Source of the DNA: Holophagae bacterium
Lineage (GTDB): Bacteria > Acidobacteriota > Holophagae > Acanthopleuribacterales > Acanthopleuribacteraceae
NCBI GenBank assembly: GCA_029263455.1
Contig: JAJCXM010000006.1
Coordinates: forward strand, 1 to 33,528
Reading direction: 5' to 3'
DNA length: 33,528 nt
Notes under the pieces: generated by a model
Told to the model about the DNA's origin: nothing
The model's input: only the letters and a program-made list of their open reading frames with translations
The model's database searches: none
Shown here: one piece after another, positions 1,733 to 30,291 of the stretch
Numbering within the stretch: position 1 is the first letter of the stretch
Layout of the letters: the number at the start of each line of letters is the position of its first letter
Position numbers and translations under genes: made by a program

Positions 1733-2389
1733 TCACGGTGGTGAGCATGATACCAATTTGCACAGGTCTCGTATGTCAATGTCGCCGGCCGGAGCCGTTA
1801 GATCGTATAGCGCATTGGATTGCAGCCAACTGGCCACGCCAGTTAATAAGTCTAAGTTGAACGATCCTGGGATGGTAACGACCAATGCGTTCGGTAACTG
1901 ATAGGCAATCACGTCGGGACGATTGGTTGGGCTGACCAGGCGGGAAGCCAATGAGCTCGTGCCCTCCACAGCGACCGTCACGGGACCTGGATCACCGGCG
2001 AAGAGTAAGGTGGCCAAGTGATAGGAGCCATTGGGCGCGCTGGGCTCAGGCCACCAGCCCACCAGAGTGACCTCATCGAAAATGACAGTTTCGTGGGTGG
2101 TGATCAAGCTCCAATGCACCTGGGCGGGTTGGTTTCCTGGCGTCGCAGATGTGAAGCTGCCGTCGGGATCGAACGAGACTGCGAGCACATAGCCGTTGAG
2201 TCCAGCCAGTTCATTGCCGTCTCCGATGAGGCCGGTCAGGTCGGCATGGATCTCGACCCGTCGCGCCAGGCCATTGCAGTCGGTTCCGCCGTCAAGGACG
2301 GTGATGGTGGCAGTACCCTGTACGCTTGATTGGGCCAGCCCGACCGATGCTGCCACCATGCACATAATAAACACGTTAAAGTTTTTCAT
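1733..2389 (-). CDS. Secreted protein of unknown function with dockerin-like acidic C-terminus
   Basis: The product is 218 residues with a normal Sec signal peptide (MKNFNVFIMCMVAASVGLAQ, cleavage likely after Ala-Gln). The open frame runs 29 codons further upstream, but an AGAGAGGGG ribosome site sits directly before the ATG at 2389, so I use that start. The middle is beta-rich (for example GNELAGLNGYVLAVSFDPDG and HLATLLFAGDPGPVTVAV), reminiscent of cohesin/Ig-like secreted domains. The end, W followed by LYDLTAPAGDIDIRDLCKL and a final Cys, resembles half of a dockerin Asp-rich loop. It follows the S74 protein by 83 bases on the same strand and is probably co-transcribed. Function unknown. 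Confidence 0.7.
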   Translation of the reverse strand: MKNFNVFIMCMVAASVGLAQSSVQGTATITVLDGGTDCNGLARRVEIHADLTGLIGDGNELAGLNGYVLAVSFDPDGSFTSATPGNQPAQVHWSLITTHETVIFDEVTLVGWWPEPSAPNGSYHLATLLFAGDPGPVTVAVEGTSSLASRLVSPTNRPDVIAYQLPNALVVTIPGSFNLDLLTGVASWLQSNALYDLTAPAGDIDIRDLCKLVSCSPP

Positions 2390-2472
2390 GGCCCCTCTCT
2401 TCTTTCTGAATGCCCGGCCCCGACAACGGGGCACGGAAATAGGCGTCAGGCTGGTAGCCGTAAAGTAGCGCA

Positions 2473-3927
2473 TCATGACCCATCGCGCAGCGCATGCAGT
2501 TCGGCCTTCAATTGATCGATTTCGGCCTGCTGCTCTTGAATTGCGCGTGTAAGCGGGACCACGAACATGGCGTAACGCAGGGCGAAAGGGGTCTGAGTGT
2601 TGCTTGGCTCATCAATGCCATTGAAATTGAACCCCAAGGATTGAGCCGCGCGTTGAACATCTTGAGCGATGAAGCCGGTTTCAACGTTCATTGACCGTGA
2701 TTTCGACTGGGGAAATTCGTCTTTAACACCCAGGAACCGGTTAAGGCCTTCAGTGTCTACTTGATAGGTCACAGGTCGCAGGCCGAGGATAAAAGACAAG
2801 CCGGGTACGTTTTCGCTGATTTCCGTTTTGAAGCGACCATCTGAAAGCGTGGACCAAGCTACCTGACCACCTATGGAATTCACCGAGGCGTTCCCGATTC
2901 GGACCTGATCGTCAGCTGTGGTTCTCGCGAAGTAGCCCAGTGCTGTCGTGTTGCTGAGATCGTCGGTCTGGGTACCGGAGTTGGTGCCAAGGGCTGAATT
3001 GCGGTGGCCCGTGATGTTATCTTCAAGGGCATTCTTGCCAAAAGCTGAGTTGGAAACACCTGTCGTAGTGAATTGCGACGCACCATCACCAGCAGCAGTG
3101 TTGTGAGAGCCAGTGGTGTTGTTGTACATAGCGCCGCGACCCACTGCCGTGTTGTAGCTGCCGGTCATATTGAGCAGCAGTGAATAGGTTCCAAGTGCGG
3201 TATTGTCTTGCCCTGTGGTGGAGTTTTTCAATGCGTTGAGACCGAAAGCCACATTGGTACTTCCGGATATATTCTCCTTGAGAGCGGAGCTGCCCACGGC
3301 GGTGCAATTGTTCAATGTGCCATCATCGTTGAGCCCCGCATCCTTCCCCACAAAAACACTATTGCCGGGAATATTAGGAATCAGCCGACCTCCGACCCAG
3401 TCACCGTTGGCGTTAATCACTGTGCCGTTTCCGGTTACCGAATAGCTATCGCCCAGCACGTCCAGACTGGCCAGGTTTCCAGCCAGATAATGAGCGACCT
3501 GGGTCAGGTAGACGGCGTCCAATCCGGGTACTCCCGCTTTGAGTTGGGATGTGATTTCGTCGGCCTGGGAGGTTAGCGTGAGGGTGTCGCGACGCGGGTA
3601 AATCGAGATCGGCCCCCAACGGCCCTGGTCGTTCTCTATCCAGACGAAAGCGACAGCTCGTGTGGTCACGCTACGGGGCAGAGGACTCCCGGTGGCGCCT
3701 AGCATCAGAACCATGTCGTCCTGAACTTGCCATACACGCTCACCGGGTTCCACGTGGATGGCTTCGCCGTTTGGTTGAGCGGTGTAGATAACTTCGACCC
3801 ATTGGCCTTCGATAAACTTGTCGGCTTCTATGGGTAAGACCAGAGGCAACACCTTAGGTGGATCCAGCTTTTGATGGATCTGTAGTTGACCCAAAAAGCT
3901 AATCAGGGTCATTAAGCAAGCATTCAT
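2473..3927 (-). CDS. Exported tail-spike-like protein with S74 intramolecular chaperone domain
   Basis: The product is 484 residues. About residues 206-325 consist of ~20-residue repeats of the form TG..NTA.G..A...N.T (for example SYNTAVGRGAMYNNTTG), the left-handed beta-roll type also seen in trimeric adhesin heads. From about residue 355 comes a Peptidase_S74 (chaperone of endosialidase) domain beginning SDGRFKTEI, ending in a coiled coil (QEQQAEIDQLKAELHALR). In endosialidase tail spikes this domain trimerises the protein and then cuts itself off at Ser-Asp, using the Ser and a Lys five residues on; both are present with that spacing. The ATG at 3927 follows AGGAGA by six bases; a GTG 18 bases upstream is the alternative. 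No phage genes are nearby, so it is probably a cell-surface or secreted trimer. Confidence 0.85.
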   Translation of the reverse strand: MNACLMTLISFLGQLQIHQKLDPPKVLPLVLPIEADKFIEGQWVEVIYTAQPNGEAIHVEPGERVWQVQDDMVLMLGATGSPLPRSVTTRAVAFVWIENDQGRWGPISIYPRRDTLTLTSQADEITSQLKAGVPGLDAVYLTQVAHYLAGNLASLDVLGDSYSVTGNGTVINANGDWVGGRLIPNIPGNSVFVGKDAGLNDDGTLNNCTAVGSSALKENISGSTNVAFGLNALKNSTTGQDNTALGTYSLLLNMTGSYNTAVGRGAMYNNTTGSHNTAAGDGASQFTTTGVSNSAFGKNALEDNITGHRNSALGTNSGTQTDDLSNTTALGYFARTTADDQVRIGNASVNSIGGQVAWSTLSDGRFKTEISENVPGLSFILGLRPVTYQVDTEGLNRFLGVKDEFPQSKSRSMNVETGFIAQDVQRAAQSLGFNFNGIDEPSNTQTPFALRYAMFVVPLTRAIQEQQAEIDQLKAELHALRDGS

Positions 3928-4489
3928 GGACATTCTCCTAATCACTGTAATGAATTGAGAGCCGGATACGACGTCACCTGCCGCGAAATATGCCTCAGCA
4001 GATGGCGCGTTCCGTTTCTTTATCCTTGCAAGCGAGAAAACCCTGCCATGACCCTAACTCTTTCTTCGGGTTTTTGTGTGTCGTCGCTCAATCCGGGTGG
4101 TTATTGAACGGCAGCAATTCAAATTCGCACAGCCACTCACGTGACGTGTTCGAAGGGGTAAAAGCGAAACTGAACGACTACAAAAGAAATGGGTGACAGG
4201 CAACGCAAAACGAGGCCATGAAATTTATGGGGAGATGTTGTGGCAAGGCTTGTTGGACATTTATGTTATGTCGGCTTGTTTAAACGTACACGCTCCCGGT
4301 TTGGTGGATTTATGAAGCTGTTGCTCTCTTACGAGCCTGAGTCATTAAGCGATGATCTTGACTAGCGATGGTCTGACTGCCACACCCTGTGAATCGAACA
4401 GTGCGACCCACTTGAGTTAGCCTTAATGGGATGGCGAAATCATGGTACAGTATTCAATGGTAATACCTTTTGATATGTAGGGTGACAAG
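3928..4489. other. Intergenic stretch, no gene recognised
   Basis: About 560 bases separate the divergent S74 operon and the antitoxin gene. A 68-codon frame at 3990-4196 has no ribosome site or recognisable composition, and I do not call it. Near the antitoxin start, GTATT-N7-AATAC (around 4449-4466) could be part of an autoregulatory operator, but the arms are short. Confidence 0.45.
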
Positions 4490-4762
4490 ATGGCGACATC
4501 GGTGAAACTAGACGATGAATTGAAAAGCCGTATCCAACATTTAGCCGATGTGCGGCAGCGTTCCGCGCACTGGATCATGCGTGAAGCGATCCGTGATTAC
4601 GTCGAACGCGAAGAGAAACGTGAGCTTATCAAAGAGGATGCCTTACGTGCCTGGCAAACTTACCAGGAAAACGGACTGCATATGACGCTTGAAGAAGCAG
4701 ATACGTGGTTGGCAAGGCTTGAAGCAGGTGAAGATGTGGAGCTGCCTGATTGCCACGCCTGA
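4490..4762 (+). CDS. RHH/CopG-type antitoxin
   Basis: The product is 90 residues. The N-terminus SVKLDDELKSRIQHLADVR followed by SAHWIMREAIRDYVEREE is a ribbon-helix-helix DNA-binding fold: a short beta strand, then two helices with the turn at RQRS. The charged C-terminal half with WLARLEAGEDVELP is the usual flexible toxin-binding tail of ParD/RelB-type antitoxins. AGGGTG lies six bases before the ATG. Family members repress their own operon and neutralise a RelE/ParE toxin. The partner gene directly downstream overlaps the last 13 bases but carries a stop codon, so this antitoxin may now be a lone regulator. Confidence 0.85.
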   Translation: MATSVKLDDELKSRIQHLADVRQRSAHWIMREAIRDYVEREEKRELIKEDALRAWQTYQENGLHMTLEEADTWLARLEAGEDVELPDCHA

Positions 4763-5040
4763 TCTGGGCACCGCCAGCACTGGCTGACGTTCAGCGCATT
4801 TATCGGTTCTTGGCTCCTAAGGATTAAGCCGCTGCTCGCCGCGCCATCAAGTCGATCAGAGTAGGCGTTAGAATACTGGCACACCAACCGGCATCAGGAC
4901 GCCCGCTTGAAAATATGGGGCCCGAGTTTCGGGAATGGTTGATCGATTTCGGCAGTAGTGGTTATATCGCGCTGTATCGCTTTGATGGGGAAACAGCAAC
5001 CATTCTCGCCGTCCGACATCAAAAAGAGACCGGAGACTAG
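4750..5040 (+). pseudogene. RelE/ParE-family toxin with one in-frame stop
   Basis: The frame starting at TTG 4750 reads LPRLIWAPPALADVQRIYRF, then LAPKD, then TAA (4825-4827), then AAARRAIKSIRVG, and finally LIDFGSSGYIALYRF and ILAVRHQKETGD, ending at TAG 5038-5040. With the stop read through it is 96 codons, the usual size of a ParE/RelE toxin. All the expected blocks are present in one frame: the N-terminal strand and helix, the RPLENMGPEFREW segment and the C-terminal VRHQKE. A single substitution therefore explains the damage. The upstream 25 codons cannot fold alone, and no good start follows the stop. The overlap with the antitoxin shows the original operon arrangement. A sequencing error is the main alternative. 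Confidence 0.82.
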
Positions 5041-5083
5041 ACGGTCCAGGATCAGGCGAAAGATGGGTTGAAGTCCGTGGCAA

Positions 5084-5103
5084 GGGCGGTTCTCAAACCG
5101 CCC
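5084..5103 (+). terminator. Possible terminator hairpin after the toxin remnant
   Basis: GGGCGGTT-ctca-AACCGCCC is a perfect 8-bp stem with a 4-base loop, followed within a few bases by a short T run (tgcaatattttt). It would end transcription of the antitoxin/toxin operon. The T run is displaced, so the call is tentative. Confidence 0.4.
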
Positions 5104-5212
5104 CTGCAATATTTTTGATCGGAGACGGGTTGCTGACCACATAAAAGAGTAGCACTGGTTCGCTGAGACTGGAGGGCCGGTCGCCCGCACCGACATGGAT
5201 GCCACGACGGGC

Positions 5213-5571
5213 ACCGGCACGTGGTTCTAACTTGTCACTCCCATACTCGGCGCTTGCGAACCTCGCTGCGCTCGATTCACAGACCCGGTCACTTCGGCTC
5301 ATTCTAAGTCTTCGTCCAAAGCGGTGCCTCAGTCGCTTAGGCTCCTGTCGACTCCGCACTCCGACTGGCAGTTCGTTCCAACCCGCGCCCCGAGGTGCAC
5401 CGGCACCTGGTACTAACTTGTCACTCCCCTACTCGGCGCTTGCGAACCTCGCTGCGCTCGATTCACAGACCCGGTCACTTCGGCTCATTTTAAGTCTTCG
5501 TCCAAAGCGGTGCCTCAGTCGCTTAGGCTCCTGTCGACTCCGCACTCCGCCTGGCAGTTCGTTCCAACCTA
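5213..5571. repeat. 186-bp tandem repeat, two copies (module A of a dispersed family)
   Basis: Copy 1 (about 5213-5398) and copy 2 (about 5399-5571) are nearly identical and exactly 186 bases apart (CTTGTCACTCCC at 5231 and again at 5417). Because 186 is a multiple of three, a 125-codon frame runs through both copies; I consider it spurious. The same unit occurs in opposite orientation at 26489-26610 and 29807-29928, where each begins GTCGACAGGAGCCTAAGCGA. It contains an imperfect palindrome around GCGCTTGCGAACCTCGCTGC. The remaining bases between 5104 and 5644 show no gene. Confidence 0.85.
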
Positions 5572-5644
5572 CTTAAGTATTTCATAATGAGGTTGTTACG
5601 GATGAGGAATCTTATGTCGCTTAGCGCGCAAATCAGGGCAAGTA

Positions 5645-5672
5645 CAAAAAAGGGGCGAGCTAGGCTCGCCCC
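5645..5672 (-). terminator. Intrinsic terminator of the M36 protease gene
   Basis: GGGGCGAGC (5652-5660) and GCTCGCCCC (5664-5672) form a perfect 9-bp GC-rich stem with a 3-base loop. On the minus strand it is followed by a run of six T, 29 bases after the protease stop codon. This is the cleanest terminator in the window. Confidence 0.88.
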
Positions 5673-5700
5673 AATTGGGTTCACGGTTTCAGAGGACCGC

Positions 5701-8700
5701 TCAAGGTTGGTAGGTCATGGTCACATGGTAGGTTGTACTACTACTTGAATAGTTGTACACACGTACTTGGTACGTGCCCGAAGCGCCATTGGTATTGTAG
5801 GTTAATGTCTCAGGCTCCGAAGTACTGGTGGCACTCGCAACGCGAGTACCGCTGGGGTTGTAGATATAGAGATCAATATCACGATTATTCTGATCCCAAA
5901 TACACGACAGATCGATGGTGCCACTGGCTACATCAATCGAGTAGTACTTGCTTGCTTTGCCAGAAAGCGTACCGTTTTCGGTTACAGTGACAGGTCCGCC
6001 GCCACCGCCTTCGGTGTAACTGGCTGTTAGGCTAGCACCCGAATAAGCTGCATAACCGTAGACAAGCACGTGATAGGTTCCCGCACTTGCACTGCCAACG
6101 CTGATCGACTCATTGTTGGAACCGTTCCATGAACGGAAGTCAAAGGTGGAAGTGGTTGGCTGGCTACCAAATCGAACGTAGAGGTCCGCATCGCCCGATC
6201 CGCCACTCAGCGTAAAGCTAAGATTAGTTGCACCTGCCGGTACACTGATTGTGTAATAAGTGGACGACGCTTGCGCACCACTTAGATTGTTTACAGATAC
6301 GCCGTTCTGCAACACATTTCCGCCAGGAGGAGGCGGTGCGCTAACAGATAGTGACTTACTGGTTGTATTGGAGAGTCCGCCGTTGTCGGTCACGGTTAGG
6401 CTCACGGTGTAACTACCAGATGATGAATAAGTGTGACTGGGATTTATGCTGCTACTGGTTGATCCATCGCCAAAATTCCACGCATAAGCGGTAATAGTGC
6501 CGTCGCTGTCGGTACTAGTACTGGTGAAACTAATGGTCAAATTGCTGATGGATTGATTGAAGCTTGCAGTCGGAGCCACATTTGGCGCCGTCAGGCTAAA
6601 TGTTTGTGAGGTCGAATCAGTGAGGCCACCATTGTCAGTAACGGTCAAGTTTACGGTGTAACTGCCACCACTTGAGTAGGTGTGGGAAGGATTGCTTTGT
6701 GAAGAACTCGATCCATCACCAAAACTCCAAGAGCGCGACACAATCGTTCCGTCGTCGGTACTGGTGTCGTTGAAATTGACCGTCAAACCGTTGATGCTTC
6801 GTGTAAACGAGGCATTGGGAGCTTGGTTGGAATTAGATTGATAGCTTCCGGTTAAGGTCGCCCCAGAATAGGCAGCATATCCGTAAATGAGTACATGGTA
6901 CGTTCCCGCGCTCGGCGAGCTAACCGAAATCGACTCATTGTTTGAGCTATTCCAAGATCGATGATCGTAGCTCGATGTCGACGGTTGACTACCTAATTTC
7001 ACGTACAGATCGGCATCGCCTGAACCACCGCTTAAGGTAAACGACAGGTTCGACGCGTTACTGGGTACAGCAAGCGTAAATCGAGTGGATGAATTTTTGG
7101 CACCGCTTAGATTGGGTACCGGAACGCCGTTGGTCAGGGTGTTGCTCGGTGGTGGAGGCGGTGGTGCGCCGTCCAGAATGTTCTGATCTTCAAATTTTTG
7201 TTGGAACACGGCCGCATGTGTTCCGCTGGGGTACAGGGTTTGAGCTGTAGAGACGATGGCAGCGGCCATGTCTCGCATCTTCAGTCCTGAACCTAAACCA
7301 AAATGGGCCTGTAATACGATTCGGTCGATCTCACCACGTGCGACGCCTTGTCCGCGCAGGCTGATCATGGCTTGAAAAAGCGGCGTTGACCATAACTCAT
7401 CGCCATACACACCACCAACCGTTGCATGAGCACCGTAAGTGGCATTGGGGTTGTACTGAAAATCGGTACGGTTCATATTGCGTCCGCCCCAGCAATTGTT
7501 GTGACCATCCCAAGGGAACGCCCATTCTGGGTGGAAACTGCCGTTGGCCGTACTATAGCGATACGATCCACCCCAGTAGTCACCAAAACCCTCACCCATG
7601 GCGCCTGTGTCACCACCGGACCAGTTGTTATTAATACTGTGGTGAATGGCGTGGCCATATTCATGCAAGATGACAAAAGCGTCTTCATTGTCGTCGACAC
7701 AACCATGACCAAAAGCCATGCGGTTGGTTGAGGGAATGAAGTGTGAGTTATCGTCACCGCTTACGCCATCAGAGTCCACACTGATCGAAGTGTACTGAAT
7801 GCCTGTCGAGCCTGAGAAACCTAGAGACTGCATGTAACGCTGACTTTGGTCGACATGAAAATAAGTCATGACATCATTAAATGCGTTGTTACCGCGTGTC
7901 TGAGTCCAGTTTCCTGTTGAAGATGTGGAAGGTGCCGTGTTTGGCGACTCAAAGTTACTAATGGTCACCCATGGTCCCTGCAAACGGTAAGTGCCACTAC
8001 TTAAACTAATGTCCAACAGACTTCGCGTCAGGTAAGCGGCCGTAAATGACGATGCCGAGCTACCGTCTTCCAAGTTGTCATTCTGTAAGGTGGTTACTGG
8101 ATCGGGATCAAAAACTTTGGCGGTTCCACCTGCTTTTTGGGCAGCCACTTTATGGCTCTCTTGCATACGTTCTTGATAACGCTGCAAGCTGGCCAATCGA
8201 TCTGCCACAGGACCTTCATAGGCTCTGAAATCTACCTGTTCCTGAGTCTCACGATCAATCGACGTCTCGCGAACGTCCAAAACATCACCGTAGATTGCGT
8301 CAACTGTATGTTCCCAATACCCAAAAGGCGCTTCCACCGCGTAGCGCACTAAATACACTAAGCGGAAGCTTTCACCTTCAGGAACATAAACCAGGTCCGC
8401 TTGCGGATAGGCCATCAATTCATCGTGAACTTTCAGGTCATGCCACGCCACATCATAGGCGTCGTCCCAATCCAAGAACACTTCAGGAGCAGTGATCGCC
8501 TTTTGTTGACGAACACGATAAGTATTGTTGTAAACCTGATAGACCTGGCCATCGCGGTTCAGCGAAACAACAATTTCGGCTTGATGAATGGGGTAGCCAT
8601 TCAACTTCTGCGCTAAATGCACATGAAAACCGATCAGGCTCTCTTGAACCCGAACTATTTCGAAATCATTGAGAGAGTCAAGACTGTAGCGATCTAGATG

Positions 8701-19002: not shown

Positions 19003-19042
19003 CAATATTACAAATGTGTTCAGTGATCCAACGGAGGTACCT

Positions 19043-20140
19043 ATGTTTTTGATTCTTTGTTTGTCTTGGTTTGCAGCCGATATGGAAGCCAATCAACCCA
19101 TCCAGTCGATTTCAGTATTGGAATTTATGGATGATGGCACCCTGCTCATTGGGGATTCGATTGGCGGTCAAGTTATTGCCGTCGACCTTGGTGAGCAAAA
19201 CGATGGCAGTGAGGTGAATCGATTATCGGTGCCTGATCTCGAATCCAAGTTGGCGCAAATGTTGGGAACACAACCAGCCGACGTGTTGATCCACGACATG
19301 GCCGTACACCCGGGTTCCCGTGAGGTCTACCTAGCCGTGTCTCGTTCACGCGCAAAGTGGAATAGTCGCTGGGAGTTACCTAACCATTTGGCCAATAGTA
19401 CGACGCTGCTGAAAATGACGCCTGAAGGTGAGTTTTCTGAAGTTAATCTAAAGACGCTTAAGCAAAGTAGCGTTTCCTTGAAGAGCCCCATCGATGCTGC
19501 CAAGGAACATCGCTGGATGAAGGGTCTCAGTCAACGGGTGGAGGCCATCACCGACATTACCTTTAGTGAGGGCAATATTTATGTCGCTGGTCTTTCCAAC
19601 GAAGAGTTTTCCTCGTCGATTTGGAAAGTAGGCTATCCGCTTAAAGAAAGCGCAGCCGCGACCTCCATTGAAATCTTTCACGGCGCGCACGGTAAATACG
19701 AGACTCATTCACCCATTCGCACCTTTGTTCCTTACACACTCAACAACAAAGAACATCTGCTTGCCGCCTACTTATGCACCCCATTTGTCACCATCGAAGT
19801 AGATGACTTGAAGCCAGCTGCCAAGATTAAAGGTCGAACCGTGGCTGAATTTGGCTCAGGTAATTATCCACTGGACATGGTAGTTATTGATTCCAGTGAC
19901 GGCCCTCAGATTATGATTTCGAACAGCAATTTACCCATTATGTTCGTCAACCCCAAAGACATCGAGTCTTTTAAAGGCGAAATTACGGAGCAGCCCAAAA
20001 CCTATGCGGCCGGCGTCAAAACCGAATACCACTCTGGTACTGGCATCTTGCATCTTGACAACCTGTCGCCCAAAAGTGTCGTCATGATTCAGCGATTACC
20101 TAGCGGTAAGCTTGATTTGGTCTCTATCGCCTTTCAATAA
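19043..20140 (+). CDS. Secreted beta-propeller-like protein
   Basis: The product is 365 residues. The start at 19043 is set by ACGGAGGT six bases upstream; the frame extends nine codons further. The first 16 residues (MFLILCLSWFAADME) form a very short uncharged export signal. The mature part has repeated 'visits' of the type found in propeller blades: DGTLLIGDSIGGQVIAVDL, DMAVHPGSREVYLAVSRS, ITFSEGNIYVAGLSNEEFSS, GNYPLDMVVIDSSDGPQIMI. It looks like a 7-bladed or 6-bladed quinoprotein/NHL-type fold without the cytochrome motifs. The next gene begins two bases after the stop, so the two are co-translated and probably work together at the cell surface or in the periplasm. Substrate unknown. Confidence 0.72.
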   Translation: MFLILCLSWFAADMEANQPIQSISVLEFMDDGTLLIGDSIGGQVIAVDLGEQNDGSEVNRLSVPDLESKLAQMLGTQPADVLIHDMAVHPGSREVYLAVSRSRAKWNSRWELPNHLANSTTLLKMTPEGEFSEVNLKTLKQSSVSLKSPIDAAKEHRWMKGLSQRVEAITDITFSEGNIYVAGLSNEEFSSSIWKVGYPLKESAAATSIEIFHGAHGKYETHSPIRTFVPYTLNNKEHLLAAYLCTPFVTIEVDDLKPAAKIKGRTVAEFGSGNYPLDMVVIDSSDGPQIMISNSNLPIMFVNPKDIESFKGEITEQPKTYAAGVKTEYHSGTGILHLDNLSPKSVVMIQRLPSGKLDLVSIAFQ

Positions 20141-20142
20141 GT

Positions 20143-21210
20143 ATGGCGCTCATATGGCTCTTGCTCTTCAGCCAAAGTGACGGATCGCTAAAGGCTGAAT
20201 GGGCTACGACAGGAAAAACGGGTGTACGTATCACTGGATGGCGTGCACCCGACCTGATCAGGACCTCGGAATTTGATCAGGCTCAGCTGAACCGGTTCCT
20301 AAAAGTCTATGTCGGAGAAACACCGCCTGTTGCCAGCCCGTCGGTGCTGGGACAGGTGAATGTCATCCCTGATGGGCTGGCGTTTGAGCCGCGTTATCCA
20401 CTTATCGCCGGTGAACAATACGTTGCCGTTCTCGCGCTAGATATGCTTGAAGGCGAGCGCTTGCCATGGACCGACAGCTATGTCATTCCAAAATCGCCAG
20501 GCTCATCACCGACCGTCACGGCCGTTTATCCGATGGTTGAGGTTGTGCCCGCCAACTTATTGCGTTTCTATATCCAATTCTCTCAACCGATGTCCGAGAA
20601 CGATCCACATGCAAAGGTTCATCTCAATGTGAATGGCGAAACGGTCGATCTACCCTTTGTTGAGGTGCCAAACGGCCTTTGGAACAAACACCGGACACGA
20701 TTGACATTAATCCTGCACCCGGGACGCATCAAACGCGAGGTTGGCCCAAACATAGCGCTTGGGCCAATCATATCAAGCGGTGATCAAATCGAATTGGTGG
20801 TTGACGCCGCTTTTGCGGGCGGTGAGTTGCAACCCATGCCCGCTACATTTAGGCAGTCGTACATGGTCGGAGAACCCATACGCACGGGATTTGATCCCAT
20901 GTCATGGCAATTCGAAATCCCCTCAGCTGGATCGAAAGACGCTTTGACGATCAAATTCGATCGCGCCCTTGATCAAATCCTGCTAGACCGTATGGTCACC
21001 ATTGAGACGAAGCAACCGACCTCGATTAAATCAAGTGCCTTTCAATTGAGCTTCTTGCCTGTCGAAGCTTGGCAACGCGGAGCATTCAATTTAGTTTTCG
21101 ATCCAGCCTTAGAAGACCTAGCCGGCAACCGACCTGGCCGCGCATTTGATCACGATTCAGAAATCTACTCAAAAAATGTTGAGCTGACCCATGTGATCCA
21201 CATTCAATAG
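20143..21210 (+). CDS. Secreted protein with Ig-like (SbsA/Big_5-type) segments
   Basis: The product is 355 residues with a 12-residue hydrophobic start (MALIWLLLFSQS) lacking positive charge. Segments such as TAVYPMVEVVPANLLRFYIQ followed by FSQPMSEND, and LTIKFDRALDQILLDRMVTI, match the 'vP.n..i.i.Fs.pmd' pattern of bacterial Ig-like domains that describe surface proteins. The end, DPALEDLAGNRPGRAFDHD, is the 'lkDlaGN' closing strand of the same domain type. The start codon lies two bases after the stop of the propeller gene. Function unknown. Together with the upstream protein it is likely an exported two-protein unit. Confidence 0.75.
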   Translation: MALIWLLLFSQSDGSLKAEWATTGKTGVRITGWRAPDLIRTSEFDQAQLNRFLKVYVGETPPVASPSVLGQVNVIPDGLAFEPRYPLIAGEQYVAVLALDMLEGERLPWTDSYVIPKSPGSSPTVTAVYPMVEVVPANLLRFYIQFSQPMSENDPHAKVHLNVNGETVDLPFVEVPNGLWNKHRTRLTLILHPGRIKREVGPNIALGPIISSGDQIELVVDAAFAGGELQPMPATFRQSYMVGEPIRTGFDPMSWQFEIPSAGSKDALTIKFDRALDQILLDRMVTIETKQPTSIKSSAFQLSFLPVEAWQRGAFNLVFDPALEDLAGNRPGRAFDHDSEIYSKNVELTHVIHIQ

Positions 21211-21714
21211 ATCAGAAGCAAGCAGCAAGCGGCAAGCTTCAAGCAGCGCCATAGCGCGACAGGATATAGCCCCGACCGTCAGGTCGGGGATAGGTCATAA
21301 AAAAGATCCTGAGCCCTCGTAGGACGGCACATCCGGCCTCCGATGTTAGGGCTAGATCTTGCGTATTAAAGATCTCTCTTTGGATACAAAAGGTTTAATC
21401 CCAACAACGTACGTCAAAACCGACCGCATAATGCTCTCCAAACTTCTGCCGCCCGAAGGGGCTCTGTGAGGATTGTTACGCTCGACCCCGGCCTTACGAC
21501 CGGGGCTAAAACCTGCCGCCTCGGTGAGGCTTAAAACAAGGCACACAAGGTGATCCACGCCCGACTCAAGTGTGAAGATTCAAGCCTCCGATATGGAGTG
21601 CGCGCAGCTTACTGCCGCTGTCGCTTGCTGCCGCTTTTGATCACAGCCTCAATGACGATGAAGAGCCCACATCGATGAACACGCTCGTCGAGCGTCTTAC
21701 TTCATGCAAGGCCT
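21211..21714. repeat. Intergenic repeat cluster II, bounded by inverted AGC/AAGC-rich ends
   Basis: No gene. The left end (GATCAGAAGCAAGCAGCAAGC, from 21210) and the right end (GCTTGCTGCCGCTTTTGATC, to about 21641) are inverted copies, giving a ~430-base element. Inside are module C (21246-21301) with the hairpin CCCCGACC-gtca-GGTCGGGG, a foldback AAGATC..AGCCCT / AGGGCT.AGATCTT (about 21304-21360), a hairpin CCCCGG-N8-CCGGGG (21486-21505) and GCCTC-ggt-GAGGC (~21518-21530). A partial copy of module E follows (to ~21700). It lies between convergent genes. Confidence 0.75.
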
Positions 21715-22869
21715 CTAGCGCTGCCGCAATGAAACGTTGTATACGACCACCTGCATGTCGCCAGACTCTAAAGTCTGCAGACTGAACACTTTGTCACCTA
21801 ACGTCGTCATCTTCGGCATGTAGCCTGCCGGAGTCAATCGCGTCATAGCATGATTAGAAAGCGTCCATTGTGCCAGTAACTGCCCCTTGCGATTGATCAG
21901 ATCAGCGCGATTAATGCCACGAGCGTGGTGCACATCGCGGACGACAAAAATGCTGCCATCGGATCGAGGCACCAAGGAGTAAATGAGTGGTTGGACTGGC
22001 GCCAATTCAGCCTCCACAACCGCTTGTCTAACAACAGAAGGCGTCACGATTTCAGCTATCTCTGGATCGGCAGCGATGGCTTCCAAGAGCGAGTCGAGCA
22101 TGGCGGCTCTGGATTCTTCGCTCTCCAAAAGGATCTTCCCAGGACCCGCGATCGTGGTTATGACCTGGCCTTTCGCATCGATTACCGTGATCGAGTATTG
22201 ATCGCCTAAGGCGATTAAACCGTGACCTTGATGGTCAAACGTAAACACGGGCAGCCGCTGATACAAGAGCTTGAGCTGCTGGGCAATTCTCGAAACCCAA
22301 TACTCAGGGTCTTGAAAACGTGATTGATCGGCCTTGCGACCGACCGTTTGATTGAATTCCGCCAGGACATCCATATTGGAATTCGAAAGCCGCGTTTCAT
22401 ACAGCATAGTGTTCTTAGCCTTATTGGCTTGCACCTCGAAGCTCAACCAAGTGCCATCCATGGGCGAAGCTGAAGCTGACAAAACAATCGCTTGTCGTTC
22501 GTTTGCATAAGATGATTGGTACTCCAGTTCAGCATCAAACGTCATCACCACCGGTTTGATGCCACCGCGTAAATCGAGCACACAAAGCGAGCCATCACCC
22601 AAAATCTGCACTGCCATCAACCCTTGGCTTTCCGCAGGTCCCTGACCTTCACGCACAAGTTGTCGCAGGAAGTTGCCTTGATGATCGAAGGCCAATAGCC
22701 GGTTGTCCCTAGGATCACAAATCAGAATATGTTGATCATTGACGGCCAACGAGACGCGAACATCGTTCCAAATGAAGTGTTCATCGTCGTTGGCGCCGAA
22801 TCGCAGCAGCTCCTGTGAGTCTAATTCAGGTACGTCCCCCAAAAGACATAGTAGACTCATGAACATCAT
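21715..22869 (-). CDS. Secreted 6-bladed beta-propeller protein
   Basis: The product is 384 residues from the ATG at 22869; AGGTGA lies seven bases upstream and a GTG one codon earlier is possible. After a short hydrophobic start (MMFMSLLCLLGDVPE) come propeller strands of the 6-bladed family: ILICDPRDNRLLAFDHQGNF, then LRQLVREGQGPAES with the diagnostic G.GPGE-like turn, SLCVLDLRGG, GLIALGDQYSITVIDAKGQ, and GSIFVVRDVHHARGINRADL. The family is common in secreted or periplasmic proteins of Bacteroidota and Acidobacteriota and its ligands are mostly unknown. It is monocistronic as far as visible and flanked by repeat clusters on both sides. Confidence 0.78.
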   Translation of the reverse strand: MMFMSLLCLLGDVPELDSQELLRFGANDDEHFIWNDVRVSLAVNDQHILICDPRDNRLLAFDHQGNFLRQLVREGQGPAESQGLMAVQILGDGSLCVLDLRGGIKPVVMTFDAELEYQSSYANERQAIVLSASASPMDGTWLSFEVQANKAKNTMLYETRLSNSNMDVLAEFNQTVGRKADQSRFQDPEYWVSRIAQQLKLLYQRLPVFTFDHQGHGLIALGDQYSITVIDAKGQVITTIAGPGKILLESEESRAAMLDSLLEAIAADPEIAEIVTPSVVRQAVVEAELAPVQPLIYSLVPRSDGSIFVVRDVHHARGINRADLINRKGQLLAQWTLSNHAMTRLTPAGYMPKMTTLGDKVFSLQTLESGDMQVVVYNVSLRQR

Positions 22870-22954
22870 CACTTTGTCACCTCCAGGCAGACCTAGAACA
22901 TACGTTAATCAACTCAGTGTCGTTTAGATTAATAGTACCTGGGGACGTGTCACG

Positions 22955-23360
22955 GTAACATGCTTCAAGCAACAAGCATGTGAGTCGGAGTTCCCTCGGC
23001 CCGTCAACTAGTGAAGCCGGCTAGCCGGAGGTTCGACTGTTAGCCTTCATCCAATCGTGGCACATGCGTACCGCTTGTGATGTTAAGGAGTTCCGTTCAA
23101 CATAGCTGCAGCCTTCCTGACGTCCCCACTCACCTCCCCCGAAGCGCCAAAGCGCGGCAGGATATAGCCCCGACCGTCAGGTTGGGGAAAGGTCATAAAA
23201 CGAGTCCCGAGCCCCTTAGGGCGACACATCAAGCACCCACCGCCCAAGCCCTGCCCCGATTAGCGCCCGCGAAGCAAGCATCGCGATGTGTAACTTATCG
23301 TGCCTGGCGAGGCTGTTCGAAAAAGCGGAGGCAAGCCTCCGCAATCCACAGCGGATAACT
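22955..23360. repeat. Intergenic repeat cluster III
   Basis: No gene between 22873 and 23428. In order: a short AAGC-rich stretch (22961-22978), module B (22980-23050) with palindrome CCGGCTAGCCGG at 23017-23028, the end of module E (CACATGCGTACCGCTTGTGA, from 23058, to ~23125), and module C (23144-23199) with CCCCGACC-gtca-GGTTGGGG. The order is the same as in cluster IV, but the internal AGC-rich foldback and most of module E are missing. Confidence 0.75.
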
Positions 23361-24641: not shown

Positions 24642-24927
24642 AACGCAATCGTTAGCGGTCAAGAAGCTGGGGGACGTTGGCGCGCGCAAACTACGCGCTC
24701 GACTCTCGGACCTTCAAGTAGCAGCAACACCTCTTGAGCTGGTAGCGGGTCGCCCACACCAACTGAAAGGATCGGATTACGGCAGCATTGCGCTCGATCT
24801 CGACGGAGGTCGACGAATTGTCTTTGAACCAACCCACAAACCCATCCCCATGAAACCGGACCAGTCCATCGATTGGAAAAAAGTTACGGAGGTACGTATC
24901 CTCTACATTGGTGACTATCATGACTAG
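24598..24927 (+). CDS. higB: HigB-type toxin of a HigBA module
   Basis: The product is 109 residues. It begins (TTG start) with LELTFATNKLRKLCETQSLA, the characteristic N-terminus of a HigB/RelE subgroup, continues with LGDVGARKLRARLSDLQVA and GRPHQLKGSDYGSIALDLDG, and ends RIVFEPTHKP and VRILYIGDYHD. Toxins of this fold are ribosome-dependent mRNA nucleases. I choose the TTG at 24598 because GGAGCG lies seven bases upstream and family members start at this point; the open frame extends 14 codons further. The 3' end overlaps the antitoxin by eight bases. The toxin-first order is typical of HigBA. Confidence 0.86.
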   Translation: MELTFATNKLRKLCETQSLAVKKLGDVGARKLRARLSDLQVAATPLELVAGRPHQLKGSDYGSIALDLDGGRRIVFEPTHKPIPMKPDQSIDWKKVTEVRILYIGDYHD

Positions 24928-26005
24928 ACCAACAACTAAAGCGTTTACGCCTGACTGGATTTCCCCACCAGGCGAAACGATCGTCGATTTGCTAGAAGAG
25001 CGCAGTTGGTCACAGAGTGAGCTAGCTGACAGGCTAGGCGTCACACCTAAACACGTTAGCTGTGTGATTAGTGGTCAGGCTTCAATCTCAGAATCGTTGG
25101 CGATTAAACTAGAGCGCGTACTCGGTAGTTCGGCCGATTTTTGGATGCGACGAGAGCATCAATTTCGCATTGCGCAACAACGAATAGAAACGACAAAGAA
25201 CTTGGCCAGTTGGACTGATTGGCTCAATGAATTGCCCGTTAAAGAATTAATGCACAACGGCCACATTCAAAAGGTACGACTTACAGAAAAGAACAAGCCC
25301 GCTATCGTTGAGGAGTTATTGAATTTCTTTCGGATTGCAAGTCCAGACGAATGGCGGTCGCGGTATATCGACATTGAAGCCAGGTATAGACGAGTCACGC
25401 ACAAATCAAGTCTTCCATGTATTTCCGCCTGGCTTCGGCTTGGTGAAATCGAAGCTGAGAAAATGAGAGTTGGGAATTTTGACCGCCGTCTCTTTGAGCA
25501 AAACCTAAGTATTGCACGAACACTTACCTCGAAGCCTGCTGAGTCATTCCAGAGCCAACTCAAACGATTATGCAGCGAAGCCGGAGTGAGGCTGGTGTTT
25601 GTTCCTGCTTTGAAGGGAGCCCGAGTCAGCGGCGTTGCTCGGTGGTTGGGCCGAAATTCACCGCTCATTCAGCTATCGTTGTATGGGAAATCGAACGATC
25701 TGTTTTGGTTCACGTTCTTTCACGAATGCGCGCACATCTTATTGCATGAACGGAAGAGCCTCTTCATTGACGATTTTGACGACACAAATGATGCGACCAG
25801 TTGTGAGCAAGAGGCGGACGAATGGGCCAAGAATTTGCTTATCGCGCCCCAATACCGATCAATCTTGCCATCGCTCCAATCCAAGTCTGAGGTCCAGGAA
25901 TTCGCAAATCGTATCGGAATCCATCCTGGTATCGTGGTTGGCAGGCTCCAACATGACGGCCACATTCCATTCAGCTGGATGAACGGACTCAAAGAGAGAA
26001 CTTAA
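24920..26005 (+). CDS. higA: HigA-type antitoxin fused to an ImmA/IrrE metallopeptidase domain
   Basis: The product is 361 residues. An XRE helix-turn-helix (~12-75; SQSELADRLGVTPKHVSCVI) with the HigA signature PGETIVDLLEERSWSQ and LGSSADFWMRREHQF is followed by a central helical linker. The C-terminal half is ImmA/IrrE-like, with zinc-site HECAHILLH (268-272 for HECAH) and the third ligand region SCEQEADEWAKNLLI. HigA neutralises HigB and represses the operon; the peptidase domain in related proteins cleaves a repressor, here possibly itself or another target. The ATG at 24920 overlaps the higB stop, favouring coupled translation. The C-terminus contains a further short helix-turn segment (EFANRIGIHPGIVVGRLQHD) typical of these fusions. 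Confidence 0.91.
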   Translation: MTRPTTKAFTPDWISPPGETIVDLLEERSWSQSELADRLGVTPKHVSCVISGQASISESLAIKLERVLGSSADFWMRREHQFRIAQQRIETTKNLASWTDWLNELPVKELMHNGHIQKVRLTEKNKPAIVEELLNFFRIASPDEWRSRYIDIEARYRRVTHKSSLPCISAWLRLGEIEAEKMRVGNFDRRLFEQNLSIARTLTSKPAESFQSQLKRLCSEAGVRLVFVPALKGARVSGVARWLGRNSPLIQLSLYGKSNDLFWFTFFHECAHILLHERKSLFIDDFDDTNDATSCEQEADEWAKNLLIAPQYRSILPSLQSKSEVQEFANRIGIHPGIVVGRLQHDGHIPFSWMNGLKERT

Positions 26006-26029: not shown

Positions 26030-26610
26030 GCATCAAGCAACAAGCTTCAAGCATCAAGCATCAAGAATGTGAGTCGGAGTTCCCTCGGCGCGTCAACTAG
26101 TGAAGCCGGCTAGCCGGAGGTTTGGCTGTTGGCCCTCATCCTTGTCGACACAGCAAGCAGCAAGCTTCAAGCTCCGATATGGAATGCGTGCAGCTCGCTG
26201 CCGCTGTAGCTTGCAGCCGCTGCTGCTTGCAGCCGCTGCTGCTTGCTGCCGCTTTTGATCAGTGCGACGCAGGAGACGAAGAAACGACATCGATGAGCTT
26301 GCTCGTCGAGCTCAATGCTTCGAATACTCGCTTCATTTTCCTGAGTGGCACATGCGTCCCGCTTGTGATGTTAAGGAGTCCGGTTCAATCAAACGTTCGG
26401 CCTCACCTGCCTCCCAAAGCGCCCTAGCGCGACAGAATATAGCCCGGCCTAATGGTCGGGATGAGCGCAGCCCCAGACGGAATGCGGTGTCGACAGGAGC
26501 CTAAGCGACTGAGGCACCGCTTTCGCCGAAGACATCGAATGCGTCGAAGACACCCGGTCTAAGAATCAAGCGCAGCGAGGTTCGCAAGCGTTGCGTATAG
26601 GAGTTACGAG
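26030..26610. repeat. Intergenic repeat cluster IV, the most complete copy
   Basis: No gene in 26006-26736. Order: AAGC-rich stretch (26033-26066); module B with CCGGCTAGCCGG (26106-26117); module D, an AGC/AAGC-rich foldback (26152-26260); module E (26258-26395), containing CGATGAGC-tt-GCTCGTCG; module C (26419-26461) with a degraded hairpin; module A (26489-26610). The remaining ~125 bases to 26736 are unremarkable 3' flank of the propeller gene. The short frames here (26093-26504) are repeat sequence, and similar frames recur in cluster V. Confidence 0.78.
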
Positions 26611-26736
26611 GAAGTCCGTACACACCAGCCCGACCACCTAACTGGCATTTCGAAAGGCAAATAGATACGTTATTAAACGATCGAAACCAAGTGACGGAAA
26701 CAGTTGTACCGTGTGTCTCGATAATTTCTCAAATTC

Positions 26737-27858
26737 CTATTTCATGTTCATAGTCAGTTTGTTGACAATAACAACGAGTTGGCCATCCTCTTCCATTGGG
26801 CTATAGAGACGTCCATCAAACCACACAGCTGAAGGGGCTAGATCATCCCAAAACAAAGTTGACGCAGTCCCTTCCCATGCCTTCACGAAAGCACCATCGA
26901 GCCTATACATTTTCATCCCTTGGCGATTTACCGCCCATTGGTCGACTACCCCAACCCCATCATCTCCTAACGTGATCAGCTGCCATGCCATCTTGACAAC
27001 AGGAAACTTTTGTTTCAATTCGTCAGTTAGGTTTCGCAAATCGTTTGCCGAAACGACTTCATCAAAAACGACAGGATCTCGAAACCGAAATCGATCCGCC
27101 CACAACTGAACTAATGGTTCCCAAGGTTCGGACTTAGCCATATTGACGTCAGCAACAAAGGATTCTTGCTCAGTGGATGGATCATAAATGACCAATCTAG
27201 ATCCACGTACCAGGGCTAGTCGACCGTCCCTCAGGAAGGTCGCTGCGACTCTCGGTTGAAGGCTTGAAATGCAAGATGTGCGTAAGAACGCGATCCATTG
27301 ATCTCGGTTAGGTCTTGAGCCATAAAAATACTCAGCTCCCTGCTCACCAAGCACAATAGACCCTGGATAGTCTTTTCTGAACAAACGTTGTGTATAGATT
27401 CTGTGCTCGTTCTCAACGTCAAAAACCGTGTAGCGCGGACAAAGGTACGACCCGTCTGGCGACAATACGAATAACTGGCAAAGTTGTGGCATTTCGTCGT
27501 CCATCATAGGTAAAGCCCGTACAGTGCTTTCAAATGTGTTCGTATCCAGCAAGACGATTTCAGGGGTTTCCAAAATGTGTTTACGGGCCAAAGCAAGCCG
27601 GGTATCCGGCAAGAGACACATTCCCAATATCTCGGAAGGCTCTTTCTCGAATAGCGCATGTTGCCATTTCACCTCCATGGACATATCGAGTCCATAGAGA
27701 ATGCCGGATTTTGTATCGGCAACAATCAATTCATGCTCACCAACGGCAATCCAGTAGCCATTGGTCTTGATGTGGAGACCTGTTTCATATCGTGACATCT
27801 CACCGCCACTCAAATATAGACATGACCAAAATAGACAGAAAAAAAGCATAGGCTTCAT
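26737..27858 (-). CDS. Secreted beta-propeller-like protein, second propeller of the three-gene operon
   Basis: The product is 373 residues from the ATG at 27858; a TTG six codons upstream overlaps the previous gene. The start MKPMLFFCLFWSCLYLSGGE is a signal peptide whose Cys residues do not form a clear lipobox. Strand pairs such as IAVGEHELIVADTKSGILYG, LLPDTRLALARKHILETPEI, RVAATFLRDGRLALVRGSRL and VWFDGRLYSPMEEDGQLVVI fit a beta-propeller, more diverged than its neighbour. It starts four bases after the stop of the upstream propeller gene, so the two products are made together. Ligand unknown. Confidence 0.72.
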   Translation of the reverse strand: MKPMLFFCLFWSCLYLSGGEMSRYETGLHIKTNGYWIAVGEHELIVADTKSGILYGLDMSMEVKWQHALFEKEPSEILGMCLLPDTRLALARKHILETPEIVLLDTNTFESTVRALPMMDDEMPQLCQLFVLSPDGSYLCPRYTVFDVENEHRIYTQRLFRKDYPGSIVLGEQGAEYFYGSRPNRDQWIAFLRTSCISSLQPRVAATFLRDGRLALVRGSRLVIYDPSTEQESFVADVNMAKSEPWEPLVQLWADRFRFRDPVVFDEVVSANDLRNLTDELKQKFPVVKMAWQLITLGDDGVGVVDQWAVNRQGMKMYRLDGAFVKAWEGTASTLFWDDLAPSAVWFDGRLYSPMEEDGQLVVIVNKLTMNMK

Positions 27859-27862
27859 AGCC

Positions 27863-28924
27863 CTAAAACCTGACAAAGTGCTTGGCCGTGTCGTCGTATA
27901 TAAATGGATACTGCAGGCTTAGAGCGTCAAATCGATCCCACGTCGTTCTGATAATCATCGCCGGATCGTCGCCATTATCTTCATCGATAGAACAAAACAC
28001 CACCTCGTCTTCTGTCCATCCAGACACCCTAGTGATTAGAGCGGGGTCAAAATTGAGCCCTACCGGCTTGCCGTTTAAGTTAATAACTGCAAACTTGCGA
28101 TCCTTGTCAGGAAACCCGGTCCATAACTCCACAATCACATGGTCGCCAGGTGCAAACCACGCTTGCTTTATTGCAGGGAATATTTCTGGAGGTGTGTACG
28201 TCACATCAATGCCCGCGCTACCCTGCTTAAACAGTTTGAGTTGTGCTTCACCCCATTCCTCATTAAAGGGTATCTTGGAGAATTCAGGGCAGATGACAGG
28301 TTCCACTGCACCGGTTAGCATGTCCATTTGCCATATCCTGGCCTGATCACCGATCCCAACCAAAATGACCTTATTCCCGTGCGGGTGGAATACAATCATT
28401 GGAGATTGATAGGTTGGATCAAAACGATAACGACCACTCACAGTTGGGCTTTCAACCCTCCAAGTATCATTCAAAACCGATCGATCTAGCCATTCGTTAC
28501 CTTGGCGTTCCAGAAACAACCACTCAAACGGTTTAGGATCAAGATGAGTCCAATTTAGTATGGTGCGCTGTGAATTGAGATAGAACCCAGGCTTAAAAAA
28601 ATCGGCATCCTTCGTCTGGTTCACAAAATGTCCGTCTAGGTCGAAAACCGAACACTTCACGCCATCATGCCGGAGGTAAAGAAGACTGTTGTGAATATAG
28701 AGGTAGTGCGGCCGAATAAAGCTTCCAGGACCTTCTCCTTTACTTCCAAATCTCAGTCGTTTCTGCCCCGACTGTGACCAGACGTCAATACAATGGTTTT
28801 CTCGGTTTAGGTAAAACAAATCTCCGTTTTCACTGATCGCAATCTGATAGCCCACAACAGGTTTAAACGAGTCAGTTGGGGCCGTCCAATCGGCAACCCA
28901 CAACATCACTAAAGCAAGAATCAT
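27863..28924 (-). CDS. Secreted 6-bladed beta-propeller protein, first propeller of the three-gene operon
   Basis: The product is 353 residues. A short uncharged start (MILALVMLWVADWTAP) precedes propeller blades: GYQIAISENGDLFYLNRENH, CIDVWSQSGQKRLRFGSKGE followed by GPGSFIRPHYLYIHNSLLYL, which is the classic 'G..G.gpGeF..P..i.' blade signature of 6-bladed propellers. Later come KVILVGIGDQARIWQMDMLT and HVIVELWTGFPDKDRKFAVI. CGAGG is about eight bases before the ATG. It begins 18 bases after the Cys-rich peptide gene. Propellers of this family are periplasmic or surface binding proteins with mostly unknown partners. Confidence 0.8.
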   Translation of the reverse strand: MILALVMLWVADWTAPTDSFKPVVGYQIAISENGDLFYLNRENHCIDVWSQSGQKRLRFGSKGEGPGSFIRPHYLYIHNSLLYLRHDGVKCSVFDLDGHFVNQTKDADFFKPGFYLNSQRTILNWTHLDPKPFEWLFLERQGNEWLDRSVLNDTWRVESPTVSGRYRFDPTYQSPMIVFHPHGNKVILVGIGDQARIWQMDMLTGAVEPVICPEFSKIPFNEEWGEAQLKLFKQGSAGIDVTYTPPEIFPAIKQAWFAPGDHVIVELWTGFPDKDRKFAVINLNGKPVGLNFDPALITRVSGWTEDEVVFCSIDEDNGDDPAMIIRTTWDRFDALSLQYPFIYDDTAKHFVRF

Positions 28925-28942
28925 TGAAGAACCTCGATTATC

Positions 28943-29128
28943 TTAAAGAGGGCGCCAACAATCACCGGCGAAACAGGTGGTACCTGAGCCTGGTTCTCCG
29001 CAATCGGAACAAATGAAGCCATAAACACCACTGGTCCATACACAATTGCAACGCGGGCCAACGGTCTGCCTGGCAAATATAGCTGATGCCGACGCGATTA
29101 AAAGAAAAGATATCAATAGTTTTTTCAT
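28943..29128 (-). CDS. Small secreted six-cysteine peptide heading the propeller operon
   Basis: The precursor is 61 residues. The signal peptide is classic (MKKLLISFLLIASASAIFA, cleavage after Ala19). The mature ~42 residues hold six Cys at 27, 29, 40, 43, 52 and 57, in the pattern C-x-C-x10-C-x2-C-x8-C-x4-C, plus three Trp/Phe-rich turns (CNCVWTSGVYGF; CFAGDCWRPL). Six Cys in 42 residues suggests three disulfides or a metal site; the peptide would be stable outside the cell. AGAGGTG precedes the ATG at 29128; the frame itself runs 21 codons further up. The gene is 18 bases before a propeller gene. The family is not recognised. The arrangement recalls the NVEALA peptide / 6-bladed propeller pairs of Bacteroidota, but I see no sequence match. 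Confidence 0.72.
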   Translation of the reverse strand: MKKLLISFLLIASASAIFARQTVGPRCNCVWTSGVYGFICSDCGEPGSGTTCFAGDCWRPL

Positions 29129-29156
29129 AAAACACCTCTTCATACGGAATATGGTA

Positions 29157-29167
29157 GTTGTAACAAC
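29157..29167. promoter_or_regulatory. Short palindrome in the control region of the peptide-propeller operon
   Basis: GTTGTAACAAC is a perfect 5-base-arm palindrome 28 bases before the peptide start codon. On the minus strand TTCACA and ATATTC with a 17-base gap surround it, a weak promoter candidate. A regulator site is possible. Confidence 0.3.
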
Positions 29168-29230
29168 AATGTGAAAATTTGTAAACAACAAGAATTCTTC
29201 ACTTCTTGTATAGGCGCATCTGCCATGAGG

Positions 29231-29928
29231 TTACAGTAAGCTTCAAGCTCCGATGTGGAATGCGTGCAGCTGGCTGCCGCTGTAGCTTGCAGCCGCTGCT
29301 GCTTGCTGCCGCTCTTGATCAGTGCGTCTCAGGAGACGAAGAAGAGACATCGATGAGCTTGCTCGTCGATCGCAATGCTTCAAATGTTTGTCTTATGCTC
29401 CTAAGTGGCACATGCGTCCCGCTTGTGATGTTAAAAGAGTTCCGTTCAACATAGCTGCAGCCCTTCCTGACGTCCTGCCTTCGTAACGAAGAAAAGCCCC
29501 CAACAGGCAAGATGAGGCTGTCTCATAAGTCGCTTCAATCGTCTTCAATGTGAGTCCGAGCTTCCTTGGCGCGGCGTAACTAGTGAAGCCGGCTAGCCGG
29601 AGGTTCGAAGTCTTTTGTTTTTATGTACTTAGCGATGATCCAATTGAACCAACAAACTGTTTCGAGCTAATTAGAAGACTTATGCGACAGCCACAAGATG
29701 CCTGTTCCACCCTTGAACTCCACTCACCTCCCAAAGCGCCAAAGCGCGGCAGAATATAGCCCCGACCGTCAGGTTGGGGTGAATGCAGCCCCAGACGGAA
29801 TGCGGTGTCGACAGGAGCCTAAGCGACTGAGGCACCGCTTTCGACGAAGACTTCGAATGAGTCGAAGTAACCCGGTCTGCGAATCAAGCGCAGCGAGGTT
29901 CGCAAGCGCCGAATGCAGGAATTACGAG
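29231..29928. repeat. Intergenic repeat cluster V
   Basis: No gene. Order: module D (29231-29321); module E (29315-29460) with CGATGAGC-tt-GCTCGTCG; an IS-end-like sequence (29514-29530); module B (29548-29610) with CCGGCTAGCCGG at 29589-29600; unique sequence; module C (29736-29780) with CCCCGACC-gtca-GGTTGGGG; module A (29807-29928). Modules D, E, C and A are in the same relative order as in cluster IV, while B has moved. Confidence 0.78.
29514..29530. mobile_element. Solo IS-end-like sequence inside cluster V
   Basis: GAGGCTGTCTCATAAGT matches GAGACTGTCTCATAAGT, the end of the IS at 33155-33171, in 16 of 17 positions. No transposase is attached. It may be the remains of an excised or internally deleted copy of the same IS, or a chance match to its terminal repeat. 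Confidence 0.5.
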
Positions 29929-30291
29929 AAAACTCAAACTCACCTGCCCGAGCACCTCACTGGCTGATTTGGGCGGGAGAATGGTGTTCTGAATGCCAAA
30001 CCATCGAGTGTTTGCAATGGATTTACCGGCGATGTCCATGTAAGCCGCTTTCCTCCTCATGTTGGATTTGAGTTGAACCACCCGATAGATCCAAAGCACG
30101 CCGCCAGCCGTTCACCGAACCGCCGACCGAGTGCCAGGGATCGCCGACTTGCAGTCGGCATTTACTTAGCCACACCAAAGAACGGAGAATGAAGCGGTTA
30201 AGCGCCAAGCGGCACCCATGGCGAGACCAGGTGCGTTGCCAAAAAATCGAAGCCATCCAGTCTCAGTTATGATCTCACAATTGGCTCATAG
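29929..30291. other. Stretch between repeat cluster V and the RdrB-like remnant
   Basis: No convincing gene. It has a perfect hairpin GCCGACT-tgc-AGTCGGC (about 30147-30163). A frame on the plus strand near 30190-30330 (for example SVMISQLAHRLTSRQ) could be a frameshifted continuation of the RdrB-like gene upstream of its stop at 30289-30291. The short minus-strand frame at 29884-30099 begins inside this stretch and runs into module A, and I do not call it. Confidence 0.4.

Follow-up and report, generated by a model that had tools for sequence, protein, structure and literature searches.

In several bacterial groups, some exported six-bladed beta-propellers are encoded directly behind small exported peptides with cysteines, often with a disulfide-handling enzyme alongside, and this layout suggests a system of two secreted proteins that has been little described. 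It is the arrangement that recurs, filled by several unrelated peptide types, and not the peptide P0001 of the stretch of DNA analysed here (the window, an entire 33.5-kb contig of a 6.2-Mb genome). On balance, we think that P0001 and the propeller beside it, P0002, belong to one transcription unit that yields a Sec-exported peptide and the cognate propeller to which it would bind. A cognate pair is the simplest reading because unrelated cysteine peptides have repeatedly been coupled to one class of propeller. Acidobacteriota and Bacteroidota have very many exported six-bladed propellers, most of which, to our knowledge, lack an assigned role. If many of them have a disulfide peptide of their own, and some also a redoxin that folds it, co-expression offers a test of what they do. 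Small secreted proteins overlooked by annotation can also be found by reading the DNA directly upstream of propellers.

P0001 is an orphan precursor of 61 amino acids (28943-29128, minus strand). A Sec-type signal peptide of about 19 residues is followed by a 42-residue mature part, RQTVGPRCNCVWTSGVYGFICSDCGEPGSGTTCFAGDCWRPL, which holds all six cysteines at spacings of x1, x10, x2, x8 and x4. Under a binomial model, the chance of at least six cysteines in 42 residues is about 7e-6 at a cysteine frequency of 1.1%, and 2e-4 at 2%. A strong Shine-Dalgarno sequence, AAGAGGTG, precedes the gene (29133-29140, minus strand; listed as upstream of the L023 peptide). Further upstream is a weak sigma-70-like promoter match, TTCACA-16-CATATT (29148-29175, minus strand; 9 of 12 positions), and such matches are no more numerous than chance would give. 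The first-pass annotation had described a 61-residue precursor with a signal peptide and six cysteines in a 42-residue mature part, and gaps of 18 and 4 bases to the genes behind it; reading frames, coordinates and strand agree with it on all of these points.

It had also held that the peptide lacks recognisable similarity, and this stands. P0001 matched no family in Pfam or NCBIfam, and no credible homolog was found in its own genome, in 60 relatives or in 396 genomes drawn from Acidobacteriota. The weak matches, read singly, were antisense, frame-broken or within other open reading frames, and were rejected as homologs. Kinship between P0001 and the other upstream peptides was likewise rejected, as their similarity is no higher than that of shuffled sequences; the L203 peptide has the final x8, x4 spacing in common with P0001, and the L031 peptide has CxC..GxY in common with it. 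Because P0001 is without a homolog in the genomes searched, there is among them no separate version of the system defined by its homologs, as had been proposed; the homolog search, set beforehand as the refuting test, went against that proposal for the exact sequence. The lack of a homolog anywhere searched is also what would be expected if the 61-codon reading frame were a product of chance and untranslated. We regard this as extremely improbable, given the Shine-Dalgarno sequence, the signal peptide, the six cysteines, the 18-nt spacing and the conserved peptides that fill the same slot at related loci.

P0002 (27863-28924, minus strand) is an exported NHL-type six-bladed propeller of 353 amino acids that begins 18 nt after P0001. 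It is followed 4 nt later by P0003 (26737-27858, minus strand), a probably exported protein of 373 amino acids. From these short gaps only, we infer that the three genes are co-transcribed. P0002 scores 21.3 bits against Pfam DUF5128, 1.6 bits short of the 22.9-bit cut-off; it is a member by the propeller family profile, and its relation to DUF5128 rests on profile and fold. An AF2 model from 30 sequences reached a pTM of 0.64, and a Foldseek search with it returned NHL six-bladed domains, at E-values down to 3e-11, and the exported Bacteroides propellers 4raa and 3s9j. These two DUF5128/NHL-type PDB structures have the same fold and blade motif as P0002, and we know of no peptide partner for either. 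By sequence, P0002 has nine matches in the window genome and 44 in one related genome; by profile, propellers of its type number 32 and 108, respectively. Acanthopleuribacter pedis is among the sources of close propeller relatives, which would place the window organism in the family Acanthopleuribacteraceae (Acidobacteriota). P0003 has a signal-like N-terminus and, by eye, blade-like stretches that make a propeller fold plausible. It had no propeller match in Pfam or NCBIfam, no relation to the propeller profile and no homolog in 21 genomes, and its model was unusable (pLDDT 34). Two exported beta-propellers had been claimed for this unit: the claim holds for P0002, on its profile, its near-cut-off DUF5128 score and the AF2 and Foldseek results, whereas for P0003 it is left without a profile match or a usable model.

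To place this unit among others, we took a census of 99 distinct propellers, almost all of them encoded in seven host-family genomes (the host family being that of the window organism), and read the upstream DNA of each. A signal peptide, at least two cysteines and a Shine-Dalgarno sequence occurred together directly upstream of 15 of the 96 host-family propellers (14 of 96 without a HiPIP-like case), with signal peptides called by a simple hydropathy rule rather than SignalP and gene starts picked by script; one propeller-rich relative weighs heavily here, and many of the counts come from one family of genomes. The upstream peptides are of several unrelated types and carry two to eight cysteines, all in the same slot before the propeller. 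They include one-disulfide, helical-looking peptides, types with paired C-x3-C, C-x6-C or C-x10-C, an eight-cysteine type, and others. Exported cysteine peptides also precede the propellers nearest to P0002 in the tree, those of L048 and L143; at L048, a single gene separates peptide and propeller. The L027 and L048 peptides, from the same bacterial family, resemble P0001 in their slot before homologous propellers, and both have C-x10-C pairs. The palindromic order of these pairs (C-x10-C ... C-x10-C) differs from that of the six cysteines of P0001 and suggests a helical hairpin.

The requirement of at least three cysteines within 150 nt was satisfied at 12 of 96 propellers and at 2 of 393 other genes (Fisher p about 1e-7), the control being 800 kb from three host-family genomes in stretches that were evenly spaced or chosen, by hand and not at random. 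Without the HiPIP-like L026 and without L031, which is from another family of the class, the count was 10 of 94 propellers (p about 2e-6). Both control cases (L260 and L283) precede propellers that simple gene picking had failed to see or to label and that were recognised on reading. When any next gene was allowed, the same 800 kb gave 12 candidates, of which two were convincing, both before propellers; those set aside by eye were YidD, reading frames within larger ones and reading frames without a ribosome site. An association with propellers beyond chance, which the first-pass annotation had asked about for homologs of P0001, is borne out against control genes for small exported cysteine peptides generally. 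These data also bear on the idea that peptide and propeller share only their regulation and their export, each having its own task in one envelope process. Operon neighbours often serve the same process without touching, and many propellers have no peptide, as this idea would allow. The link is nevertheless specific to propellers, with no convincing peptide before another type of gene in the control, and we consider mere co-regulation unlikely.

Some loci met in this survey are worth recording in their own right. The small exported HiPIP-like protein before L026 passes the filter, resembles an ordinary iron-sulfur protein and was kept out of the main counts; the orthologous propellers of L026 (G001) and L040 (G000:C35) both have such a protein upstream. 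The record of L172 (G004, Acidobacteriota bacterium MO_135.B14) has undergone a very large expansion, with 108 propeller profile matches, and many of its propellers have single-disulfide, helical-looking exported peptides upstream. In L193 (Gemmatimonadales; 207-2174), two related cysteine peptides with a common FWRD motif are encoded in tandem, flanked by a CxxC lipoprotein on one side and a propeller on the other.

Beyond the host family, one peptide type could be followed across genomes. A6 is, by its sequences, an unnamed peptide family, found in this analysis, whose profile was built from two 71% identical peptides (L200 and L239) that lie before propellers of other Acidobacteriota. The profile gave 21 matches in 15 of 396 Acidobacteriota genomes, from families f42, f49, f55 and f81, at E-values that take in the training sequences. 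The main copy stands directly before a six-bladed propeller in all 15 genomes, as do 18 of the 21 matches overall (the others are L345-L347), so that A6 alone provides 15 conserved gene pairs. Every main copy has the pattern C-x6-C-x20-C-x6-C, with invariant cysteines. In the propeller tree, the propellers linked to A6 group together (4 changes versus 14.8 in shuffles), and A6 peptide and propeller have therefore been inherited together. The A6 units resemble that of the window in having an exported cysteine peptide directly before an exported six-bladed propeller. They differ in that the peptide is unrelated to P0001 and a redoxin gene comes next, where the window has P0003; the A6 profile had no match in the window genome, and the 1-10-2-8-4 spacing of P0001 is different.

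The gene after the propeller in 12 of the 15 A6 loci encodes a protein of about 155-176 amino acids with CxxC, mostly at an overlap of a few bases, and all eight of these proteins tested match AhpC-TSA, one slightly under the cut-off. Beyond the host family, a redoxin profile independent of its test cases found a thioredoxin-like neighbour with CxxC at 4 of 4 peptide-bearing and 3 of 82 peptide-less propellers (p 2e-5); as L200 and L239 are related to each other, the four amount to about three independent cases. Within the host family, the association is weak (3 of 18 versus 0 of 36, p 0.03), which counts against a cognate pair, and this p value is soft and pattern-dependent because the CxxC pattern was widened after the first pattern had missed real redoxins. 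Separately, the window genome holds a second peptide-propeller example in L381 (G000:C9:1-11000), where a row of genes at about 2146-6051 encodes two exported cysteine peptides, two propellers and one redoxin with CxxC; this redoxin matches Pfam Redoxin under the cut-off.

Some A6 units (L348-L362; for example L353, 823-2857) go on with an unclassified, ABC permease-like membrane protein of about 245-250 amino acids and an ABC ATPase of the DrrA/lantibiotic-protection-like kind. This suggests that a transport step is linked to the A6 peptide-propeller-redoxin unit. The redoxin and ABC-transporter neighbours at related loci had not been foreseen in the first-pass annotation. The transporter genes are among the findings that would fit a peptide acting as a secreted effector, such as a bacteriocin-like competition peptide, with the propeller as chaperone or self-protection partner and the variety of peptides arising from diversifying selection. 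Tandem peptide copies and the sharply different peptide types between related propellers would fit this too. Against it, P0001 is not cationic (net charge about -1, by counting), the A6 peptides are kept across several families, unlike typical effectors, and neither P0001 nor the L200 peptide of A6, which matched nothing in Pfam or NCBIfam, belongs to an effector family there. We rate an effector role as somewhat unlikely.

In the cognate pair that we favour, the six cysteines of P0001 would form three disulfides after export. At related loci, the thioredoxin-fold protein encoded beside the propeller may make or reshuffle the disulfides of the peptide; for the window unit, a general oxidase would have to form them. 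The folded peptide would then bind to the propeller, either as a subunit or as its cognate ligand, and, as the fast-changing part, it may be the source of specificity. The propellers had earlier been suggested to bind, display or modify the peptide. Binding is the role that we take to be the most likely, and modification found no support: no modification enzyme gene was recognised by eye among the window reading frames near the unit, and P0002 and P0003 match no such enzyme in Pfam or NCBIfam.

Several observations count against a cognate pair. A read-through AF2 model of the peptide with P0002 gave no confident placement (peptide pLDDT 30-46), and gene adjacency need not imply physical contact. 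Most of the family's propellers lack such a peptide, and the window unit lacks a redoxin gene. P0001 itself is without a homolog, and cysteine invariance was seen in A6, which is another peptide family.

The layout can also be compared with methylamine dehydrogenase, in which MauA is a small, cysteine-rich exported subunit, MauB the propeller subunit and MauD a redoxin helper. By analogy, peptide and propeller could be the small and the large subunit, respectively, of a redox enzyme whose cofactor is a metal or is derived from protein. A small cysteine-rich exported protein with a propeller and a redoxin resembles MauA-MauB-MauD, though the likeness is one of layout only. Here the propellers are six-bladed and NHL-type, and the peptides are smaller and very diverse, too different from one another for a common active site; among the genes of the window unit, we recognised none for making a cofactor. 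A redox enzyme of this kind is thus very unlikely.

The nearest described kind of system is that of the Bacteroidota, in which NVEALA peptides (PF14055) are paired with TolB-like six-bladed propellers. P0001 likewise adjoins a six-bladed propeller, with P0002 18 nt downstream. Its assignment to NVEALA was rejected, as it had no PF14055 match at E-values up to 1. The NVEALA motif after the signal peptide, present in L296, is absent from P0001 by reading, and the NVEALA profile matched none of 60 Acidobacteriota genomes and did match the Bacteroides ihuae control. The separateness from NVEALA claimed in the first-pass annotation is thus upheld, by profile and by motif. In L296, the only NVEALA locus examined, a redoxin-domain lipoprotein and a four-cysteine NVEALA peptide are followed by the start of a propeller. 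The likeness to the window lies in a small exported cysteine peptide upstream of an exported propeller, with a redoxin-domain gene nearby, and in the KGxGPxEF motif of the first propeller blade, which P0002 also has. The differences are a gap of 353 nt in place of 18 nt and a propeller that is a lipoprotein, cut by the contig end. The open-access literature yielded no NVEALA paper and nothing relevant on peptide-propeller-redoxin units. We tentatively raise the possibility, which we would not yet call probable, of a general secreted system, spread over several phyla, that combines in one complex an exchangeable disulfide peptide, an NHL-type propeller and, in many cases, a dedicated redoxin, the peptide being the specificity element and the NVEALA pairs one branch.

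The peptide-propeller unit of the window is flanked by copies of a dispersed intergenic repeat in the same orientation (26158-26646 and 29234-29964), with more copies at 5201-5569 and 21245-23214. The flanking copies were considered as the sign of a mobile cassette, and this was rejected, since the repeat is dispersed and has 71 matches across the genome. A further exported propeller, of 385 amino acids, lies at 21715-22872 (minus strand); it is kin to host-family L037 and L049 and has no cysteine peptide upstream. Two adjacent exported proteins are encoded at 19016-20140 and 20143-21210 (both plus strand), the first propeller-like by eye and the second with Ig-like or SbsA-like stretches. The 490-residue repeat protein encoded at 2473-3945 (minus strand) has, by reading only, a C-terminal part that resembles the S74 intramolecular chaperone domain of phage tail spikes. 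Just upstream of the AT-rich to repeat-rich stretch before the peptide-propeller unit, the gene at 24908-26005 (plus strand) combines an N-terminal helix-turn-helix with a C-terminal HExxH metallopeptidase-like part, by reading of the ImmA/IrrE type.
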